This document shows, one piece after another, positions 32,948 through 42,957 of a stretch of DNA of 64,000 bases (position 1 is its first letter; the number at the start of each line of letters is the position of its first letter). The notes beneath the pieces were generated by a model that saw only the letters and a program-made list of their open reading frames with translations, was not told the origin of the DNA and ran no database searches. Location of the stretch: assembly GCF_900240315.1 (NCBI RefSeq), contig NZ_OEPZ01000005.1:114358-178357 (forward strand), read 5' to 3'. This DNA comes from Dorea phocaeensis. Lineage in GTDB: Bacteria > Bacillota > Clostridia > Lachnospirales > Lachnospiraceae. A program made the position numbers and the translations under genes.

Positions 32948-35092
32948 ATGGAATATATAGCCCATCTTGATGGTGAAAGAATTCAGACGGTAAAAGAACA
33001 TTTAGAAGGAACAGCGAGGTTGGCAGGGGAATTTGCAGAGAAATTTGGAAAGCAAGACTGGGGTTATTGTTGTGGAATGCTTCATGATATTGGAAAATAC
33101 TCCATGGATTTTCAACAAAGAATTTTAGGAGAGAATAATCAACGAGTAGATCATTCAACTGCAGGAGCAAGAGTGTGTAGAGAAAAAGGCGGTAAATATT
33201 CCTTTTTGGAATATTGCGTAGAAGGTCATCATACGGGATTGCCGGACTTTGGAAGCAATTTTGATGATGGGATTGCACCGACTTTGCTAGGGAGAAGAAA
33301 GAAGAAAATTAGTGATTATGAGGTGTATCGAACAGAAATTGAGCTTCCGGAAATAAGTTCTTATCCAATTAATATGGAAAAGGCAGTTGACAGAGATTTT
33401 TCACTTAGCGTTTTTATGAGAATGATTTATTCATGCTTAGTGGATGCAGATTATTTAGATACAGAAAATTTTATGAAAAAGGGAGAACAGGGGAGAGAGG
33501 CGGGGCAGAATATAAAAGTTCTTTTTGGAAAACTGGAAAACTATATTTCTGGATGGCTTAAAAATCAAGATATTGATACTGTGAATGGAAGAAGAACAGA
33601 AGTTTTAAGACATTGTCTAGAATTGGGTAAATCTGAAAAAGGACTTTTCCGTTTGACTGTTCCAACAGGAGGTGGAAAAACCATTGCATCTCTTGCTTTT
33701 GCATTACGACATGCATTGGAAAATCGAATGGATAGGATTATTTATGTAATTCCATATACAAGTATTATCGAGCAGAACGCAAAAGTGTTTCGAGGCATTT
33801 TAGGTGATGAAAACGTATTGGAAAGTCATTGCAATGTTGATTATGAAAGTGTGGATGAGCTTCGACCAATGCATCTTGCAAGTGAAAATTGGGACAAACC
33901 GATTGTTGTTACTACGAATGTACAGTTTTTCGAATCTTTGTTTGCTAATAAATCTTCAAAATGTAGGAAGTTACATAATATTGCTAATAGCGTTATCATT
34001 TTTGATGAAGCACAGATGTTGCCGAATGATTATTTGAAGCCATGTACTGCTATGATAGAAGAACTTATTAATAACTACGAAGTAAGTGCTGTTTTATGTA
34101 CAGCTACTCAACCGGCATTGAAGAGTTTTTTTAAAAGCGGAATTTCAGCAACAGAATTATGTCCGAGAATGGAAGAGCAGTTTGAATTTTTTAAACGGAC
34201 AGTATTTGAAGATACAGGGATATTAACAGAAGAAAAGTTGGTTGAAAAAATAAATAAAGAATATCAAGCGTTATGTATCGTTAATACAAAGAAAAGAGCA
34301 CAAAGGCTTTATAAAACGTTAGAAGGAGAAGGGATTTATCATTTATCCACGAGTATGTATCCGAAGCATAGAAAATGCGTATTGCAGGAGATAAGGAACA
34401 GACTTAGGAGAAATGAAAGATGTATTCTTGTTTCTACTAGTCTTGTGGAAGCAGGGGTGGATTTGGATTTTTGCTCAGTTTATCGAGAACTTGCCGGAAT
34501 AGATGCTATGATTCAAGCTGCGGGAAGATGCAACAGAGAGGGGGAGCGAGCGTTAGGTGAAAGTAAAGTGTTTATTTTTAGGTTTGAAGAAAAACAGAAT
34601 ATTTTAGGACAAAGGCAGCAAATTGATGTGGCAAAAAGTTTGATCTCAGATGGAAGAAATATTTCGGATGCAGAAACCATTACAAAGTATTTTGAGATGT
34701 TATATCATATCAAAGGTGATAGTTTGGATAAGAAAAAAATATTGGATGAGTTTCAAGGTAAGAATATGAGATATAATTTCGCTAAAGTAGGAAAAGAATT
34801 TAAATTGATTGAGCAAAATACAAAAACAATCTTTATAAATCGAGAAGAAGTAGCGAATGAAATTTTAAGACGACTGAAAGAACGAGGGGTTACGCGTCAG
34901 GAGATGAGAAAAGCCGGTCAGTATTGTGTTACTGTATATGATCAAGAATTCGATAAAATGTATGGAATGGGAATACTTCAACAAATTGCCGATGGTATTG
35001 AAGATTTTTATGAACTGACAGATAGTAATAAATATACGAATGAAATGGGTCTGGAGTTGGAGATTGATGATGGTGCAGCTTTATTTTTCTAA
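32948..35092 (+). CDS. cas3: CRISPR-associated helicase/nuclease Cas3 (type I-C)
   Basis: The 714-residue protein has an N-terminal HD nuclease (MLHDIGKYSMDFQQRI, DHSTAGARV) and an SF2 helicase: Walker A VPTGGGKTIAS at about residue 237, DEAQ box at about 351, TATQPAL, VEAGVDLDF and QAAGRCNREG. Cas3 degrades DNA bound by Cascade. It starts at ATG 32948 after AGGAAGG. Unusually, 1.2 kb containing two extra genes and a regulatory region separate it from cas5. Confidence 0.95.
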   Translation: MEYIAHLDGERIQTVKEHLEGTARLAGEFAEKFGKQDWGYCCGMLHDIGKYSMDFQQRILGENNQRVDHSTAGARVCREKGGKYSFLEYCVEGHHTGLPDFGSNFDDGIAPTLLGRRKKKISDYEVYRTEIELPEISSYPINMEKAVDRDFSLSVFMRMIYSCLVDADYLDTENFMKKGEQGREAGQNIKVLFGKLENYISGWLKNQDIDTVNGRRTEVLRHCLELGKSEKGLFRLTVPTGGGKTIASLAFALRHALENRMDRIIYVIPYTSIIEQNAKVFRGILGDENVLESHCNVDYESVDELRPMHLASENWDKPIVVTTNVQFFESLFANKSSKCRKLHNIANSVIIFDEAQMLPNDYLKPCTAMIEELINNYEVSAVLCTATQPALKSFFKSGISATELCPRMEEQFEFFKRTVFEDTGILTEEKLVEKINKEYQALCIVNTKKRAQRLYKTLEGEGIYHLSTSMYPKHRKCVLQEIRNRLRRNERCILVSTSLVEAGVDLDFCSVYRELAGIDAMIQAAGRCNREGERALGESKVFIFRFEEKQNILGQRQQIDVAKSLISDGRNISDAETITKYFEMLYHIKGDSLDKKKILDEFQGKNMRYNFAKVGKEFKLIEQNTKTIFINREEVANEILRRLKERGVTRQEMRKAGQYCVTVYDQEFDKMYGMGILQQIADGIEDFYELTDSNKYTNEMGLELEIDDGAALFF

Positions 35093-35110
35093 GAAATACA
35101 GGTAAATGAA

Positions 35111-35160
35111 GGAAGCGGTGGATGTGTACATATATTATGCTGTACGCATTCACCGCTTCC
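35111..35160 (+). terminator. Long hairpin after cas3
   Basis: Arms 35111-35129 and 35142-35160 pair over 19 bases. Two pairs are G-U in the plus-strand RNA but would be A-C mismatches in the opposite RNA, so the structure has been kept for plus-strand transcription. No clear U run follows. It could end cas3 mRNA or protect its 3' end; it also lies where the minus-strand crRNA-like RNA would finish. Confidence 0.5.
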
Positions 35161-35215
35161 CTTAAAACGTTCTAAACCAAAGTTAATATTTCAATCCGCA
35201 GAGGGTAACTCTGAC
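35154..35215 (-). ncRNA. crRNA-like RNA: single degenerate CRISPR repeat plus spacer-like sequence
   Basis: On the minus strand, 35215-35188 reads as a variant of the array repeat. It has the same first three bases (GTC) and the same last ten (GGATTGAAAT). The hairpin between them has a different sequence but the same shape (CAGAG-TTACC-CTCTG in place of the CGCTCCC/GGGAGCG stem). A spacer-like segment follows from 35187 downward (ATTAACTTTGGTTTAGAAC first). Its own promoter puts the transcript start at or next to the first repeat base. Cas5 of type I-C cleaves at the base of the repeat stem, so an 11-base handle plus guide is expected. The end at 35154 assumes a 34-base guide, as in the array. 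No second repeat is visible. Confidence 0.78.
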
Positions 35216-35221
35216 GTACTA

Positions 35222-35250
35222 AATATAGCATATAGGTTTTTGGTTTTCAA
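35222..35250 (-). promoter_or_regulatory. Promoter of the crRNA-like RNA
   Basis: On the minus strand: -35 TTGAAA (35250-35245), 17 bases, -10 TATATT (35227-35222) with an extended TGC just before it. The predicted start (about 35215) coincides with the first base of the degenerate repeat. Confidence 0.75.
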
Positions 35251-35268
35251 GATTTTGAAATAATAAAT

Positions 35269-35305
35269 TTCATTAAATTTGGATCAGAACAAAAGAAACT
35301 GAATT
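35269..35305 (+). promoter_or_regulatory. Predicted Cascade target site (PAM plus partial protospacer)
   Basis: TTC (35269-35271), the type I-C PAM, is followed by ATTAAATTTGGATCAGAAC (35272-35290). This matches the guide of the crRNA-like RNA at 16 of 19 positions; mismatches are at 6, 12 and 14. Positions 6 and 12 are the ones flipped out of the duplex in type I Cascade. Beyond position 19 the match is lost. A 34-base footprint would reach the -35 box at 35304. Confidence 0.75.
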
Positions 35306-35332
35306 GATTTTGGGCTAAAAGTATGATATATT
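35304..35332 (+). promoter_or_regulatory. Promoter of the DUF3990-DUF3791 pair and probably of the Cascade operon
   Basis: TTGATT (35304-35309), 17 bases, TATATT (35327-35332) with extended TGA before the -10 box. No other strong promoter or terminator is visible between here and cas5. Confidence 0.7.
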
Positions 35333-35399
35333 AAGAATAAATAAAGAATAACAATAAAAAAACAGAATAATCTGGTTGGCTATAGAGAGGAAGAAGAAA

Positions 35400-35867
35400 A
35401 TGATTTTATATCATGGGAGTAATGTCGTAGTAGAATATCCAGAAGTTCGAAAAGCGAAATATAATAAGGATTTTTATTTTGGGTTTTATGTGACTAAGTA
35501 TCCGGAGCAGGCGAGGCGTTGGGCGACACGTTATGGAAAAAAAGGCTTTATTAATAAATATGAATATGTACCAAATAAAAATTTAAATTGTCTTATATTT
35601 GAAGAAATGACCGAAGAGTGGTTAGATTTTGTTGTTGCCTGTCGTCGAGGGAAATCACATAAATATGATATCGTAGAGGGACCAATGGCAGATGACACGA
35701 TTTATAATTATATACAAAATTTTATAGATGGGAAAATATCAAGAGCTGCCTTTTGGGAGTTGGTAAAATTCAAATATCCTACACACCAAATTAGCTTTCA
35801 TACAATTTCAGCGCTTGATACATTGAAATTTATAGGAAGTGAGGTTGCGTATGGCCAGAAAAAATAA
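35400..35867 (+). CDS. DUF3990 protein, ADP-ribosyltransferase-fold toxin candidate
   Basis: The 155-residue protein begins MILYHGSNVVV and continues DFYFGFYVTKYPEQARRWA. These are the N-terminal YHG and 'D-F-G-x-GFY-T...A-x-x-W' blocks of DUF3990, which is grouped with ADP-ribosyltransferase folds. A glutamate-containing C-terminal region (KYPTHQISFHT) completes the domain. ATG 35400 follows GAGAGG. The following gene overlaps its end by 17 bases. Position in a cas locus, coupling to a small DUF3791-like gene and the guided promoter suggest a toxin held silent by Cascade (inference). The activity is untested. Confidence 0.75.
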   Translation: MILYHGSNVVVEYPEVRKAKYNKDFYFGFYVTKYPEQARRWATRYGKKGFINKYEYVPNKNLNCLIFEEMTEEWLDFVVACRRGKSHKYDIVEGPMADDTIYNYIQNFIDGKISRAAFWELVKFKYPTHQISFHTISALDTLKFIGSEVAYGQKK

Positions 35868-36291
35868 TAATGATTTGTTTTTTACATGTAGTTTGATTGA
35901 ATATATCGGCCGTAAGGTAAAAAGAACAAGGAGAGATGTTGTAGAGTCTCTAGGAAAAGAGCGGTTGATGCGTATTTATGAGTATGCAGACGTGTTCCAT
36001 TGTGAGCCGATAGAAAAAGTAGCAGACGAATTTATAGAAGAAAGTAAGGTGATGGTAGGAAACTTTGATAACGAGAAAGAATGTAAATATTTAGTGCCCG
36101 ATTATTGGAGTATAGGAGAGGTATATGAACGATTAATAGAGGATTCATATGCAGATAACGAAATTGTGAAAGGGATTTGGGAAGTGTATCATTCGTGGAT
36201 TGATAAGCATATTTCAGATTATAATACAGATTTTTATTATCAGCCCAGAGATTATATAGCGGCATGTTATGAGGAAGGAGTAATCTTGTGA
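35851..36291 (+). CDS. DUF3791-like protein coupled to DUF3990
   Basis: The 146-residue protein has an N-terminal helical part (SLIEYIGRKVKRTRRDVVE, then YADVFHCEPIEKVADEFIEE) resembling DUF3791, a family repeatedly found beside DUF3990. A C-terminal extension of about 75 residues (YWSIGEVYERLIEDSYADNE) follows. It starts inside the end of the DUF3990 gene behind AAGTGAGG and ends 25 bases before cas5. It may be an antitoxin, a co-toxin or a targeting subunit; nothing in the sequence decides this. Confidence 0.65.
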   Translation: MARKNNNDLFFTCSLIEYIGRKVKRTRRDVVESLGKERLMRIYEYADVFHCEPIEKVADEFIEESKVMVGNFDNEKECKYLVPDYWSIGEVYERLIEDSYADNEIVKGIWEVYHSWIDKHISDYNTDFYYQPRDYIAACYEEGVIL

Positions 36292-36316: not shown

Positions 36317-36979
36317 ATGGGAATGGGAGTAAAAGTAAAAGTTTGGGGAGATTATGCATTATTTTCTCGTCCTGAATTAAAGGTAGAAAGATACTCTTAT
36401 GATGTGATGACGCCATCTGCTGCAAGAGGAATCTTGGAAGCGATTTACTGGCATCCGGGTATGAAATGGGTAATTGATAAAATCTATGTGAAGAATCCTA
36501 TCAGTTTTACCAGTGTTCGAAGAAATGAAGTCAAGAGCAAGATTTCTGCGAACAATGTTTTATCGGTATATAACGGAGCGAGAAAACCTCTTTACATCAA
36601 TAGCAAAGAAGAGATTGTTCAGAGGGCATCTATAATTCTGGCAAATGTGGAGTATGTGATAGAAGCACATTTTGAAATGACAGAAAAAGCGAATGAGACA
36701 GATAATCCGGGGAAATTTAAAGATATTATAATGAGGCGACTGCGCAGGGGAGAATGTTATCACATGCCATATTTTGGATGTAGGGAATTCCCTGCGCATT
36801 TTGCATTATGTGAAGAGGAAGAAATTCAAACAGCGTTTGATGATGTGGCGGAAAAAGATTTGGGATTGATGCTATTTGACATGGATTATACAGATAAAGA
36901 AAAAATTGAGCCGCTGTTTTTTCGGGCAATTATGAAGCGGGGAGTGATTGATCTTAGAAATTGTGAGGTGATACGATGA
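36317..36979 (+). CDS. cas5c: Type I-C Cas5 (crRNA-processing subunit of Cascade)
   Basis: The 220-residue protein has the type I-C Cas5 start (GVKVKVWGDYALFSRPELKV) and the block CYHMPYFGCREF. In type I-C there is no Cas6, and Cas5 itself cuts the repeat RNA, leaving an 11-base 5' handle. It starts at ATG 36317 after AAAGGAGAG and overlaps cas8 by four bases. Confidence 0.95.
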   Translation: MGMGVKVKVWGDYALFSRPELKVERYSYDVMTPSAARGILEAIYWHPGMKWVIDKIYVKNPISFTSVRRNEVKSKISANNVLSVYNGARKPLYINSKEEIVQRASIILANVEYVIEAHFEMTEKANETDNPGKFKDIIMRRLRRGECYHMPYFGCREFPAHFALCEEEEIQTAFDDVAEKDLGLMLFDMDYTDKEKIEPLFFRAIMKRGVIDLRNCEVIR

Positions 36980-38730
36980 TTTTGCCGGCACTTGTGAAAC
37001 ATTATGAAAATTTGGCGGAGAAAGAAATGGTATCAAAACCTGGCTGGTGTAGTGCGAAAGTTTCCTATCAGATTGAACTATCCAGTGCAGGTGAGGTAAA
37101 GGGAATTATCAGTTTGAAAAGAGAAGAAGAACGAGGAAAGAAAACGGTATTGACGCATCAGATATTGCCAGTGCCAGAGATGGTAACAAGGTCCTCAGGA
37201 GTTTCAGCTAATTTTTTGTGTGACAATGCGAAATATCTTCTTGGAATGAGCCGGGAAAATGATGCAAAGAATAAAAAAAGAGCAGAAGAATGCTTCCAAG
37301 CAGCAAAGGGAAAGCATCTTTCCTTGTTGGAAGGGGCAAAAGGAAAGATGGCGAAGGCTATTTGCTTGTTTTTTGAAAAATGGGATCCGGTAAGTGCAAT
37401 GGAATGTCCGGAAATCAGAGAAAACTGGGAAGAAATTACAGATGGTGGAAATCTGATTTTTGGTATGGAAGGGGGGTATGCGCAGGATGATATAGAAATT
37501 AAAGAATTGTGGAACAACCGAAAACAGGAAGAGAATGAAGATATAGAAGGTGTTTGTCTGGTGACAGGACAACGGTCAGAAATTGCAAGAATTCATAGAG
37601 GGATAAAAGGTGTGCGGGGGGCGCAGTCGAGTGGCGCAGCTTTAGTTTCCTTTAATGCTTCTTCATTTGAGTCTTATGGGAAAGAACAAAGCTACAATGC
37701 GCCGGTAGGGAAATATGCAGAGTATGCCTATACTACGGCACTCAATTTTTTGCTATCAGATAGAGAGCATTCTCTTCAAATTGGAGATACGATGGTTGTG
37801 TTCTGGGCAGAAAGCGGTGAAAAGAATTATCAGGATGCGTTTATGGAGTGTATGGATCCACCAACAGATAATCAAGAAGAGTTGAAATATTTGTTTAAAA
37901 AAGTACAAAGTGGAGAGAGGATAGAAATTTTTGGAAATGAATTAAACCCAGAACAGAAATTTTATGTATTGGGATTATCGCCGAATGCAGCTAGATTATC
38001 TGTGAGATTTTTTTATGAAAATTCATTTGGGAAGATTCTAAATAATATTTCAGAGCATTATAGAAGGATGTCGCTCGTAAAACCCAATTGGGAGACGAAA
38101 GAATATTTGAATGTGAAGGAGATGCTGTTTGAAACGGTAAATAAGAAGGCGAAAGATAAGAAACCGGTATCCAATATGGCAGCAATGACATTTCGTGCTA
38201 TTTTGTCAGGAGAGAGGTATCCAGCAAGATTATATTCCGATATTATGATTCGAATTCGAGCAGAGCAGGAAGAAGGAAAACTTAGCTGGAGAAAGATAGC
38301 CATTTTGAAAACATATCTGATACGAAATTGTAATTGGACGGAAGGAGAGAATTATATGGGATTAAATGAGGAGAGCAATGATACTGCATATGTACTTGGA
38401 AGATTGTTTGCTATATTAGAGGGGATACAAGCAGAGGCAAATCCGGGAATACAGGCAACAATTCGTGATCGTTATTATAATTCGGCATGCGCAACGCCGG
38501 CAGCAATTTTTCCTGTTTTAATCAGATTAAAAAATAGTCATATGAAAAAGTTAGGACGGGAAAAAGAGAGTGCAAAAAATTATTACGAAAAACTTTTTTC
38601 GGATATTATGTGGAAAATAGATGGGGAGGAAGGATTCCCAAAACGATTATCCTTAGAAGAGCAAGGGAAGTTTGCAATTGGCTATTATCATCAAAGACAG
38701 AAAAAATATGAAAAAAAGGAGGAAAAATAA
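36976..38730 (+). CDS. cas8c: Type I-C Cas8 (Csd1), large Cascade subunit
   Basis: The 584-residue protein has the usual Csd1 length and blocks (VTGQRSEIARIHRGIKGVRG, and LGLSPNAARLSVRFF). It reads the TTC PAM and recruits Cas3. It is joined to cas5 by an ATGA overlap and to cas7 without a gap. Confidence 0.95.
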   Translation: MILPALVKHYENLAEKEMVSKPGWCSAKVSYQIELSSAGEVKGIISLKREEERGKKTVLTHQILPVPEMVTRSSGVSANFLCDNAKYLLGMSRENDAKNKKRAEECFQAAKGKHLSLLEGAKGKMAKAICLFFEKWDPVSAMECPEIRENWEEITDGGNLIFGMEGGYAQDDIEIKELWNNRKQEENEDIEGVCLVTGQRSEIARIHRGIKGVRGAQSSGAALVSFNASSFESYGKEQSYNAPVGKYAEYAYTTALNFLLSDREHSLQIGDTMVVFWAESGEKNYQDAFMECMDPPTDNQEELKYLFKKVQSGERIEIFGNELNPEQKFYVLGLSPNAARLSVRFFYENSFGKILNNISEHYRRMSLVKPNWETKEYLNVKEMLFETVNKKAKDKKPVSNMAAMTFRAILSGERYPARLYSDIMIRIRAEQEEGKLSWRKIAILKTYLIRNCNWTEGENYMGLNEESNDTAYVLGRLFAILEGIQAEANPGIQATIRDRYYNSACATPAAIFPVLIRLKNSHMKKLGREKESAKNYYEKLFSDIMWKIDGEEGFPKRLSLEEQGKFAIGYYHQRQKKYEKKEEK

Positions 38731-39642
38731 ATGAGTGAAGTGATTAAAAACAGGTATGAATTTGTAGTTTTGTTTGATGTGGAAAATGGTAATCCCAATG
38801 GGGATCCGGATGCAGGGAATATGCCGAGAATTGATCCGGAGAGTGGACTTGGTCTGGTGACTGATGTGTGTTTAAAAAGAAAAATTCGAAATTATATAGA
38901 AACTGTAAAAGAAGATGAAAAGGGATATAAAATTTATATAAAAGATGGTGTTCCGTTGAATAAAAGTGATCGTGAAGCGTGTGAAAGCTTGGGGATTAGT
39001 GATACCGATGAGAAAAAGGTGACGGAGTCTTTAAAGAAATTAAAGAAAAATGATGAAGAGGCCGATGTTAAGATCAGAGACTATATGTGCCGGAATTTTT
39101 ATGATATAAGAACGTTTGGTGCAGTTATGACAACATTTGTAAAAGCAGCTTTAAATTGTGGGCAGGTTAGAGGTCCGGTACAGATTGGATTTGCAAGAAG
39201 TGTAGATCCAATTGTATCCCAGGAAGTTACTATTACGAGAGTAGCGATTACAACCGAGAAAGATGCCGAGAACAAAAGTACAGAGATGGGGAGAAAGAGT
39301 GTTGTTCCTTATGGATTGTATCGGGTAGAGGGATATGTATCTGCCAATTCGGCAAGAAAAGTGACTGGATTTACGGAGAGGGATCTTGAGTTATTGTGGG
39401 AGGCAATTATTAATATGTTTGAGCACGATCATTCAGCTGCTCGTGGTAATATGGCAGTTCGTGAGCTGATAGTATTTAAACATAGTAAAGAACTGGGGGA
39501 TTGTCCAGCGTATAAGCTGTTTGATTCAGTTGAAGTAAAGAAGAAAGATCAAGTAGAATATCCGAGGAGTTTTCGAGATTATATTGTTGAAGTGTATGAG
39601 GAAAATATCCCTGAATCAGTAGAAGTAAAAAGGATGATTTGA
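38731..39642 (+). CDS. cas7c: Type I-C Cas7 (Csd2), Cascade backbone
   Basis: The 303-residue protein shows the Cas7 signature NGNPNGDPDAGNMPRIDP and the glycine-rich loop region RGPVQIGFARSVDP. Copies of it coat the crRNA guide; the kinked base at every sixth position is the basis for the mismatch tolerance noted for the crRNA-like guide. Confidence 0.96.
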   Translation: MSEVIKNRYEFVVLFDVENGNPNGDPDAGNMPRIDPESGLGLVTDVCLKRKIRNYIETVKEDEKGYKIYIKDGVPLNKSDREACESLGISDTDEKKVTESLKKLKKNDEEADVKIRDYMCRNFYDIRTFGAVMTTFVKAALNCGQVRGPVQIGFARSVDPIVSQEVTITRVAITTEKDAENKSTEMGRKSVVPYGLYRVEGYVSANSARKVTGFTERDLELLWEAIINMFEHDHSAARGNMAVRELIVFKHSKELGDCPAYKLFDSVEVKKKDQVEYPRSFRDYIVEVYEENIPESVEVKRMI

Positions 39643-40307
39643 TGGAATATACAGAAGATGATTATTTGATGTTGTCAGGTATTCAACATTTTAAATTTTG
39701 CAGAAGACAGTGGGCATTAATTCATATCGAGCAGCAGTGGGCAGAAAATATACATACAGTTGTAGGTGAATTGATGCATAAAAAAGCACATGATCCATAT
39801 CTCACGGAAAAAAGAAAAGATTTACTTGTGGCAAGGTCTCTTCCTGTTGCTTCAAAAGCAATGGGGGTAAGTGGAGAGTGTGACGTTGTTGAATTTCGTA
39901 GGTGTGAAGATGGAATAAAACTGCATGGACATAGAGGTACATTTTTGGTTTATCCAATTGAGTACAAAAAAGGAAAACCCAAGGTTACAGAAGAGGATAA
40001 GCTTCAGCTTGTGGCGCAGGCTTTGTGTCTTGAGGAAATGTTTTCTACAAATATTTCAGAAGGAGCATTGTTTTATGGAGAAACAAGAAGACGTGAAGTG
40101 GTTATAATTACGGAAGAGTTGAGGCAGGAAGTCATAAAGATGTTTCAGGAAATGCATCAGTATTTTGATAGGAAATATACGCCAAAAGTAAAATATAATA
40201 AAGCGTGTAATTCTTGTTCGTTGAAGGATATTTGTCTCCCAAAACTTGAGAAATCAAACTCGGTGGAAAAATATATTACCCAGATGCTGAAGGGGGAAGA
40301 AAAATGA
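39642..40307 (+). CDS. cas4: CRISPR adaptation nuclease Cas4
   Basis: The 221-residue protein has a RecB-like nuclease fold with iron-sulfur Cys at FCRRQW and at the C-terminal CNSCSLKDICLPK. Catalytic acidic residues are in GECDVVEFR and YPIEYKKGKPK. Cas4 trims prespacers so that inserted spacers have the right PAM. Its ATG shares one base with the cas7 stop codon. Confidence 0.93.
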   Translation: MEYTEDDYLMLSGIQHFKFCRRQWALIHIEQQWAENIHTVVGELMHKKAHDPYLTEKRKDLLVARSLPVASKAMGVSGECDVVEFRRCEDGIKLHGHRGTFLVYPIEYKKGKPKVTEEDKLQLVAQALCLEEMFSTNISEGALFYGETRRREVVIITEELRQEVIKMFQEMHQYFDRKYTPKVKYNKACNSCSLKDICLPKLEKSNSVEKYITQMLKGEEK

Positions 40308-41335
40308 AAAAATTGTTGAATACATTATATGTGACTTCTGAGAACAGCTATTTGGCATTAGATGGAGAAAATGTTGTGATTCTTGAAGATACAGTTGAAA
40401 TTGGACGGTTGCCTTTACATAATTTGGAAGGGATAATTTCGTTTGGCTATAGAGGGACGAGTCCAGCGCTTATGGGAGCATGTGCAGACCGAAATATTTC
40501 TCTTTGTTATATGACGCCGCAAGGAAAGTTTTTAGCAAGAATAACGGGTAAAATAAAAGGAAATGTTATATTGCGTGAACAGCAATATTCTAGTGCGAAA
40601 AACAAAGAACAAAGTTTAGTGATAGCAAAAAATTGTATTTTAGGGAAAGTGCACAATGCAAGATGGGTATTGGAACGAGCGATTCGAGATCATAGTCTTC
40701 AGATTGATGTGGGACAAGTAAAAAAAGCATCAGAATATTTAAAGAATTCTTTGAGTTATATTCAAGATAGTCAATCGAAAGATCAGTTAAGAGGATATGA
40801 AGGTGAAGCTGCAAGCGTTTATTTTGGAGTATTCGATCAGTTGATATTACAACAGAAAAAAGAGTTTAATTTTCAGGGGAGAAACAAGAGACCACCACTG
40901 GATAACGTCAATGCATTATTATCTTTTGTATATACTTTATTAACAAATCAAATCATATCGGCGCTTGAATGTGTAGGGTTGGATCCTTATATTGGCTATC
41001 TTCATACAGAGCGGCCGGGGAGAGCATCTTTAGCGTTAGATTTAATAGAGGAATTAAGAGCGGTATTGGCAGATCGTTTTGTATTGTCTTTGATTAATAG
41101 AAGGATAATCACAGGAAAGAATTTTGTGACAAAAGAAAATGGTGCAGTGCTGATGGATGATGAATTAAGAAAAAGGCTGTTAACGGAATGGCAAAATAAA
41201 AAGAAGGAGACACTGACTCATCCATATCTTAAAGAAAAGATTGAATGGGGAATGGTTCCGTATGTGCAAGCCATGCTGTTAGCACGGTATTTAAGAGGAG
41301 ATTTAGATGGTTATCCTGTATTTCTCTGGAAGTGA
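40304..41335 (+). CDS. cas1: CRISPR integrase Cas1 (type I-C)
   Basis: The 343-residue protein has the Cas1 active-site blocks: RGYEGEAASVYFG (Glu), YIGYLHTERPGRASLALDLIEE (His and Asp). It overlaps cas4 by four bases and inserts spacers with Cas2. Confidence 0.96.
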   Translation: MKKLLNTLYVTSENSYLALDGENVVILEDTVEIGRLPLHNLEGIISFGYRGTSPALMGACADRNISLCYMTPQGKFLARITGKIKGNVILREQQYSSAKNKEQSLVIAKNCILGKVHNARWVLERAIRDHSLQIDVGQVKKASEYLKNSLSYIQDSQSKDQLRGYEGEAASVYFGVFDQLILQQKKEFNFQGRNKRPPLDNVNALLSFVYTLLTNQIISALECVGLDPYIGYLHTERPGRASLALDLIEELRAVLADRFVLSLINRRIITGKNFVTKENGAVLMDDELRKRLLTEWQNKKKETLTHPYLKEKIEWGMVPYVQAMLLARYLRGDLDGYPVFLWK

Positions 41336-41346
41336 GGCGGAAGGGA

Positions 41347-41637
41347 ATGTTAGTGCTGATTACATATGATGTAAATACAGAAACTGCAGCTGGAAAAAGA
41401 AGATTGCGCCAAGTTGCAAAACAATGTGTAAATTACGGGAGAAGGGTGCAAAATTCAGTGTTTGAATGTATTTTAGACAATGCTCAATGTGTTATGCTTA
41501 AAGCAAAGCTGACAGATATTATCGATGAAGAAGTTGATAGTTTGAGGTTCTATTACTTGGGAAATAAATATAAAACAAAAGTAGAACATGTTGGTATAGA
41601 TCGAGGTATTGCAGCTGATGAGATTCTTATTATGTAA
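41347..41637 (+). CDS. cas2: CRISPR adaptation protein Cas2
   Basis: The 96-residue protein begins MLVLITYDVNTETAAGKRR, the standard Cas2 start with its conserved Asp, and ends EILIM. ATG 41347 follows GGCGGAAGGGA. The array leader begins right after it. Confidence 0.95.
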   Translation: MLVLITYDVNTETAAGKRRLRQVAKQCVNYGRRVQNSVFECILDNAQCVMLKAKLTDIIDEEVDSLRFYYLGNKYKTKVEHVGIDRGIAADEILIM

Positions 41638-41805: not shown

Positions 41806-42957
41806 GTCGCTCCCCTCGTGGGAGCGTGGATTGAAATAAACATTAAAACTTGCTTTTGATCTGTTAAAATTGTCGCTCCCCTCGTGGGAGCGTGGATTGA
41901 AATACAGAGGGAATCAATTTTATCGCAGTTAAGGGAACGTCGCTCCCCTCGTGGGAGCGTGGATTGAAATACATTAACAATATCATATTCCCAAGCGTTC
42001 GTGGTCGCTCCCCTCGTGGGAGCGTGGATTGAAATCGTACCCTGCATATCCTACACCAACTGGGTTGCCGTCGCTCCCCTCGTGGGAGCGTGGATTGAAA
42101 TAAACCAAATTTTAAAACTATCGTCATATTGTTTGTCGCTCCCCTCGTGGGAGCGTGGATTGAAATTCCGCTCAAATCAGAAACAACATATCCTCTAATG
42201 TCGCTCCCCTCGTGGGAGCGTGGATTGAAATAAATTGAGCAAAGGAAAACAAACAGTGTTGGCGCGTCGCTCCCCTCGTGGGAGCGTGGATTGAAATAGA
42301 TTGTTAAGAATGATAAGAGATACAAGGATGAGTCGCTCCCCTCGTGGGAGCGTGGATTGAAATCAATATTCCGGGGTGTAAAAATGTACCGGGTTGCGTC
42401 GCTCCCCTCGTGGGAGCGTGGATTGAAATTAAAATAACAGTATCTCTATTTCATAGAACACTTGTCGCTCCCCTCGTGGGAGCGTGGATTGAAATCACAA
42501 TCCGTAGTCTGCCGCTACCACAGAGGACCGTCGCTCCCCTCGTGGGAGCGTGGATTGAAATGATTATTGCCGATCGGCTCGGAACACTGGTGTGGGTCGC
42601 TCCCCTCGTGGGAGCGTGGATTGAAATTGCTCTCTAATTGCCTTCTGAATAATCTGCCTTGGTCGCTCCCCTCGTGGGAGCGTGGATTGAAATTCTTGTA
42701 TCATCACCATGCCATGCTTGATACGTTGTCGCTCCCCTCGTGGGAGCGTGGATTGAAATAATGACAATAAAGACTGTCAGCCTCTTGGCAGCGTCGCTCC
42801 CCTCGTGGGAGCGTGGATTGAAATATCGGAAGTTTTATGCCAGGAAGATTAAATCTTGTCGCCCCCCTCGCGGGAATGTGGATTGAAACATTCTGTTTTT
42901 GCAGAAAGAGAAGAAAAAGGAGTAAGTCGCTCCCCTCGTGGGAGCGTGGAGTGGAAT
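41806..42957 (+). CRISPR. Type I-C CRISPR array, 18 repeats and 17 spacers
   Basis: The 32-base repeat starts GTCGCTCCCC and ends GGATTGAAAT, with a 7-base stem (CGCTCCC/GGGAGCG). The first 16 copies are identical (starting at 41806, 41872, 41939, 42004, 42070, 42135, 42200, 42266, 42332, 42398, 42464, 42530, 42596, 42662, 42728, 42793). The last two (42858 and 42926) carry several changes, the usual decay at the leader-distal end. Spacers 1-16 are 33-35 bases and spacer 17 is 36. All spacers differ. By eye I find no match of a spacer to the rest of the window. Confidence 0.98.

Follow-up and report, generated by a model that had tools for sequence, protein, structure and literature searches.

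What does a single degenerate repeat of the clustered regularly interspaced short palindromic repeats (CRISPR) kind do on the minus strand between cas3 and the remaining genes of a type I-C locus, in front of a gene for a DUF3990 protein? The question is raised by a 64,000-nucleotide stretch of a Dorea phocaeensis contig (NZ_OEPZ01000005.1, positions 114,358 to 178,357; hereafter, the window). We consider it likely, with a probability of roughly 0.8, that the minus-strand element is a single-repeat gene for a regulatory RNA resembling CRISPR RNA (crRNA), of the CreR type, and that Cascade guided by this RNA represses the DUF3990-partner-cas5-8-7-4-1-2 operon without cutting it. CreR has been stated for CRISPR types I-B, I-E and V-A (PMC13131331), and both CreR (Liu et al. 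2023) and CrePA, which has a KilA-N toxin (Shu et al. 2025), are reviewed in PMC12737573.

The element lies beside cas3, and its parts are a promoter-like site, a degenerate repeat of type I-C, the guide and a hairpin (Table 1), as the initial annotation of this DNA had noticed. Direct comparison with the array repeat of the same locus (GTCGCTCCCCTCGTGGGAGCGTGGATTGAAAT, 32 nt) bore out the proposal of array-like ends around a swapped stem: the first 3 and the last 10 bases of the element's repeat (GTCAGAGTTACCCTCTGCGGATTGAAAT, 28 nt) are identical to those of the array repeat, and the 5-bp stem, CAGAG/CTCTG, is its own and unlike that of the array repeat. Such a repeat-like sequence outside the array, with a conserved processing handle, is a feature of CreR. 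The hairpin is the probable 3′ end of the RNA; behind the guide it has no clear U-tract, and the number of terminator-like sites found was zero. As for the two promoters that had been proposed, one for the RNA and one for the operon, both motifs are present and are the sole σ70-like sites within positions 35050-35420. Since sequence shuffles yield a mean of 1.5 such promoter-like sites, the promoters by themselves prove nothing.

The proposed pairing of guide and target held on alignment. The guide, ATTAACTTTGGTTTAGAAC, matches the plus-strand target, ATTAAATTTGGATCAGAAC, at 16 of 19 positions, the mismatches being at positions 6, 12 and 14, and the target stands beside TTC, which is a tested type I-C protospacer adjacent motif (PAM) in Xanthomonas oryzae (PMC8406640). 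The guide thus partly matches the predicted promoter of a cas operon beside a PAM, as in CreR, and has the seed match at positions 1-5 and 7-11 beside TTC that is a feature of CreTA. None of 5,000 shuffles of the window guide equalled the true match on the TTC sites of its region. When the organism's own genome (2.47 Mb) was searched with the target pattern, in which the three mismatch positions were set to N and up to 3 mismatches were tolerated, two sites alone were retrieved: the target, and the guide itself, which lacks the TTC.

The chief support comes from comparison, namely from 21 further DUF3990 loci in which this layout recurs. Related loci were collected by a scan for DUF3990 proteins, from which 80 of 82 loci were kept; L-numbers denote these and the other loci compared. 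A cas3 or cas5 gene of the I-C kind was found near DUF3990 in 31 of them; the count for the other 49 covers the available flanking sequence, which on some contigs is short, and does not extend to other CRISPR types. The pair formed by the DUF3990 gene and its partner is located directly after cas3 and/or before cas5 in 30 of the 31 loci, with both cas neighbours in 23 (as remnants in L090), cas5 only in four (L067, L071, L075 and L077) and cas3 only in three (L073, L080 and L094). Twenty-seven of the 30 could be evaluated; in L067, L075 and L077 the sequence stops less than 150 nt upstream of DUF3990. A strict rule (TTC, at least 9 of 10 seed positions with position 6 excluded, and at least 12 of 17 matches) was passed by 15 of the 27 (L066, L070, L072, L074, L076, L078, L082-L086, L088, L089, L091 and L094). 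A relaxed rule added seven, namely six with a one-base indel (L065, L068, L069, L081, L087 and L092) and L080 with two seed mismatches. The element was not found in five of the 27 evaluable loci (L071, L073, L079, L090 and L095). It sits in front of cas3 in L078. Two loci, L092 and L094, have a minus-strand target instead, close to the -10 element or the start. In L074 (2992-5239) a transposase-like gene stands between the target promoter and an intact DUF3990 pair. In the 31st locus, L099 (3400-7833), the pair is flanked by cas8 and cas7 genes that belong to another I-C lineage, likely through a second recruitment, and no element was found in the available sequence.

A failure of guide and target to covary among related loci had been named beforehand as a possible refutation; the comparison was run on the related I-C loci, and covariation was found. 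The set consisted of the window and 21 loci in which the element lies between cas3 and DUF3990 (n = 22), and a guide's score in a region, whether its own or one of the others, was that of the best TTC site there. The mean score was 32.1 for cognate versus 24.3 (standard deviation 3.7) for non-cognate combinations, and none of 20,000 permutations was as good as the cognate mean, the highest reaching 27.6. In 17 of the 22 loci, between 0 and 0.2% of 5,000 shuffled guides equalled the true match; in the remaining five they were as good in 0.6% (L080 and L087), 3.2% (L069), 4.1% (L081) and 12% (L092) of trials. The guide is fitted best by its own region in 14 loci; in eight (L065, L066, L068, L069, L080, L081, L082 and L092) other regions fit equally well or better, because many guides are related and AT-rich. 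Hits to the strict rule were obtained in 28 of 218 loci (18 duplicates removed), all 28 at cas loci, and in none of 75 loci without cas3 or cas5 (568 kb). With the guides reversed, 8 hits were obtained in 7 loci, all of them at these elements, because the guides are near mirror-symmetric; as a control, the reversal is therefore not independent. Many of them, including that of the window (35187-35171), show this symmetry over the 17 matched positions in the style of AATAA-n-ATTTA-n-AATAA. Some guides of L065-L094 also carry a small inverted repeat at positions 8-22 (e.g., TTTAC..GTAAA), both sides of which change between some loci and which is broken in others; it may form a guide-internal hairpin.

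Type I Cascade complexes are known to read their targets in a 5+1 frame with base flipping. Among 22 ungapped guide-target pairs, positions 1-5 match in all 22, position 6 in 5, positions 7-11 in 21, 19, 18, 21 and 17, position 12 in 4, positions 13-17 in 12, 16, 16, 19 and 17, and positions 18-24 in 5-9. With a match fraction of 0.37 expected from composition, positions 6 and 12 are at background. The drop at these positions is not due to site choice, because the score that chose the sites credited them in the same way as 13-17, only 1-5 and 7-11 being weighted more. Twelve other elements, 11 without a DUF3990 hit in the available sequence and that of L078, which has the pair, match in 6 of 12 at position 6, 1 of 12 at position 12, 8-12 of 12 at positions 13-17 and 0-5 of 12 at positions 18-24. 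These were picked by seed score, apart from L036 and L161, which were picked by eye, and L149, L198 and L209 were excluded. Their 12/12 matching at positions 1-5 and 7-11 thus partly reflects the selection; the drop at position 12 and the end of matching at position 17 do not. As judged from these alignments, the match pattern is the 5+1 Cascade reading frame. Experimentally studied CreA RNAs pair at positions 1-5 and 7-11 beside TTC (PMC8501985).

Could the element nevertheless be a decoy or a relic, a decayed leftover repeat with a chance match to AT-rich DNA that Cascade does not use? Both guides and targets are AT-rich, and matches are weak in some loci, as such a reading would have it. 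Against it stand the covariation, the position pattern, the PAM and the conserved handle, and also the recurrence of a promoter-like site and a hairpin across loci. A -10-like hexamer takes a similar place in most related loci. Among 33 elements (22 + 11), the spacing between the best -35 and the best hexamer of this kind upstream of the handle is 17 nt in 21 (a count made with no shuffled control), the promoter-like sites being weak in several (L084, L087, L089, L094, L044 and L203). A hairpin of -14 to -42 kcal/mol starts 18-35 nt past the handle in all 33 (searched over 18-44 nt, with no control). Unlike the handle, which is retained, the repeat stem differs among the elements in both of its arms (CAGAG/CTCTG, CAGG/CCTG, CGG/CCG and CAGC/GCTG); the stem is absent in 3 of the 33 and just 3-4 bp long in several. 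We regard a decoy or relic as very improbable.

Thus, because of the guide-target covariation and the 5+1 mismatch pattern, RNA-guided binding of Cascade at the operon promoter is strongly supported at the level of sequence, and RNA-guided repression of the operon appears highly probable. The DNA itself provides the layout, the match, the covariation and the lost matching at positions 6, 12 and beyond 17; the steps that follow would be that the RNA is transcribed and taken up by Cascade, that Cascade at the promoter blocks RNA polymerase, and that a match of ~17 nt is too short for cutting by Cas3. In a type I-C system, a match of at least 27 bp was needed to kill (PMC8406640), and set beside the ~17-nt match this makes binding without cutting the natural inference. 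The initial annotation had also expected that Cascade would regulate itself; this would follow from the operon order, since the cas genes stand in the targeted operon.

Table 1. Features of the minus-strand element, its target and the surrounding type I-C locus in the window.
Feature	Position	Strand	Remark
cas3	32948..35092	+	upstream of element
Gap between cas3 and DUF3990 gene	307 bp		element on its minus strand
3′ hairpin	35111..35161	-	-28.7 kcal/mol; starts 26 nt past handle; also behind cas3 on + strand
Guide ATTAACTTTGGTTTAGAAC	35169..35187	-	
Degenerate single type I-C repeat GTCAGAGTTACCCTCTGCGGATTGAAAT	35188..35215	-	
Predicted promoter of crRNA-like RNA	35222..35250	-	TTGAAA-17-TATATT, TG before -10
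TTC PAM	35269..35271	+	
Target (protospacer) ATTAAATTTGGATCAGAAC	35272..35290	+	16/19 matches to guide
Predicted operon promoter	35304..35332	+	TTGATT-17-TATATT, TG before -10; just 3′ of target
DUF3990 gene (PF13151; PADLOC PDC-M10A)	35400..35867	+	155-aa protein
Partner gene (PADLOC PDC-M10B)	35851..36291	+	overlaps DUF3990 gene
cas5 (Cas5c/d)	36317..36979	+	
cas8 (Csd1)	36976..38730	+	
cas7	38731..39642	+	
cas4	39639..40307	+	
cas1	40304..41335	+	
cas2	41347..41637	+	name from position and sequence, no family search run
CRISPR array	41806..42957	+	18 repeats

The last two repeats of the array (42858-42957) are degenerate, and degenerate repeats are common at the distal end of arrays. The genome has a second DUF3990 gene, 55% identical, on another contig (G000:C8:236047-236487).

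The element is not confined to loci with the DUF3990 pair. An element with a matching target and no DUF3990 in the available sequence was found in 14 loci (L036, L042, L044, L063, L149, L161, L162, L164, L171, L190, L193, L198, L203 and L209), which span the family of the window's organism, five other families of its class and one more of its phylum; among them, L063 has a distant Cas5 of unsure subtype, the match in L149 requires an indel and the handle of L161 is altered. Since the element is seen without DUF3990, its basic role is more likely Cas autorepression, as in CreR, than toxin guarding. In a quick Cas5 tree (65 rows, many open forks), all 26 DUF3990 rows fall inside one group of 32 rows (Shimodaira-Hasegawa approximate likelihood ratio test, SH-aLRT, 96), and the DUF3990 label needs five changes, so that the pair has come or gone in loci that retained their cas genes. 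Three of the six pair-less members of this group have kept the element (L036, L042 and L149). The simplest history is that Cas autorepression came first and that later, on one or a few occasions, the DUF3990 pair was inserted behind the targeted promoter.

These data bear on the reading in which the element does nothing but set the Cascade level and the pair is an independent defence cassette that rides in the operon. It is favoured by loci of several families that have the element but not the pair, and by three members of the very Cas5 group that bears DUF3990 in which the same holds. More than a chance passenger is indicated, on the other hand, by the restriction of all DUF3990 rows to one Cas5 group, by an overlap of the DUF3990 and partner genes that is identical in 29 of the 30 loci of the cas3-cas5 slot, and by the pair's presence at another place in the second I-C lineage of L099. 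We consider the chances of this reading to be evenly balanced.

What the pair does is the next question. The DUF3990 protein matches PF13151 at 173 bits (cut-off 32), a sequence family of the ADP-ribosyltransferase (ART) clan, in which DUF3990 has been placed (PMC7955679). Its structural model has a predicted ART fold of the ADP-ribosyltransferase/RES-toxin kind; the closest solved folds are the ParT and RES toxins of ParS/Xre pairs, at just 6-12% identity. Across 37 aligned DUF3990 proteins, H5 is nearly invariant and Y30 and Q130 are invariant, and by analogy with general ART motifs these three are putative catalytic residues. The modelled fold suggests that DUF3990 may be toxic. In this protein, Pfam searches found no domain other than DUF3990, and hence no KilA-N domain. 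The partner had been described as DUF3791-like; its match (E 0.17) is below the cut-off, and a distant likeness at best remains, seen in 7 of 32 relatives (best E 0.0063). Its model is all-helical with no clear match in the Protein Data Bank, and kinship with the ParS/Xre antitoxins is not supported. The partner is likely an antitoxin or an accessory protein. Together, the two correspond to the PDC-M10 candidate defence system, with M10A and M10B adjacent (E 2e-78 and 1e-68). An RNA toxin in the style of CreTA was considered and rejected; the 155-aa product of the gene behind the targeted promoter belongs to a conserved protein family.

With a likely toxin in first place behind the targeted promoter, the pair would rise when Cascade is scarce or blocked, and it is possible, if somewhat doubtful, that it is a toxin unit triggered by Cascade failure. 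A stronger form is addiction of the CreTA/CrePA type, in which the RNA serves DUF3990 as its true antitoxin and a cell whose Cascade is lost or blocked is killed or arrested. It can draw on the predicted ART/RES-toxin-like fold, on the place of DUF3990 as the first gene behind the promoter and on CrePA, where a KilA-N protein toxin has already been described (PMC12737573). Several observations weigh against release of a toxin on Cascade loss, and against addiction in particular. The antitoxin need not be RNA, as the partner protein is encoded beside DUF3990 in 75 of 80 loci; 49 of the 80 have no cas3 or cas5 of the I-C kind in the available sequence, and 44 of these 49 have the partner. The decayed I-C locus L090 (5741-7042, on a contig of a metagenome-assembled genome) has fragments of cas3 and cas5, and both genes of its pair are open, DUF3990 from a TTG codon. 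The occurrence of the element where DUF3990 is not seen and the five label changes on the Cas5 tree also speak against addiction, which we hold to be unlikely. Of the CreTA-like scheme proposed at the outset, the targeting of the promoter by Cascade has therefore held, on the covariation and the 5+1 pattern, and the toxin half is plausible, against which stand the partner protein, the 49 loci in which no such cas3 or cas5 was seen and L090. The last of these is a natural test of whether the pair tolerates the loss of Cascade.

Returning to RNA-guided repression of the whole operon, a feedback loop would hold Cascade at a set level. Were Cascade merely scarce, derepression would refill it and the loop would close; under a lasting block by an anti-CRISPR protein the loop would stay open, the likely ART toxin pair would accumulate and the infected cell would be harmed or arrested. 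Since the toxin pair and Cascade share a promoter, derepression would remake Cascade too, and a lasting alarm would need a lasting blockade. We tentatively suggest, with clear reservations, that the locus is a self-resetting detector of Cascade failure, in which a shortage corrects itself and only a lasting anti-CRISPR block arms the toxin as an anti-anti-CRISPR trigger.

If Cascade guided by the RNA does repress the operon, RNA-guided Cas autorepression would extend to type I-C, and loss or blocking of CRISPR defence would be tied to release of a likely toxin pair. The few dozen loci, whose guides change along with their promoter targets and mismatch them where Cascade does not read, amount to an evolutionary test. 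They let control of a likely ADP-ribosyltransferase toxin pair by Cascade be tested, make sensing of anti-CRISPRs through Cas feedback testable, and give the uncharacterised DUF3990/PDC-M10 pair a candidate setting and function. Shmakov et al. (2023) reportedly predicted mini-arrays, repeat-spacer elements that partly match promoters of cas or toxin-antitoxin cargo. Our literature search, whose reach did not extend to that survey, found no report joining DUF3990 with CRISPR, and the claim of novelty is limited accordingly.

Among known systems, CreR is alike in that a crRNA-like RNA partly matches the promoter of the cas operon, with Cascade as the repressor, as it would be in the present locus (PMC12737573); it is known from types I-B, I-E and V-A, whereas here the type is I-C, the element has one repeat and a 3′ hairpin, and the DUF3990 pair leads the targeted operon. 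CreTA, a type VIII toxin-antitoxin system of type I-B, shares the degenerate repeat, the TTC PAM and the seed at positions 1-5 and 7-11, and creA of H. hispanica also has one repeat and a terminator (PMC8501985, PMC9458426). The CreTA toxin is an RNA, whereas the candidate here is a protein that has a partner protein and shares its operon with cas genes; in addition, positions 13-17 are matched as a third segment. In CrePA, as would be the case here, Cascade and a crRNA-like RNA repress a protein toxin, which an anti-CRISPR would release (PMC12737573). That toxin is a KilA-N protein, in contrast to DUF3990 with its predicted ART/RES-like fold and its partner, and the location of toxin and Cascade in one operon would allow the loop described here to refill itself.
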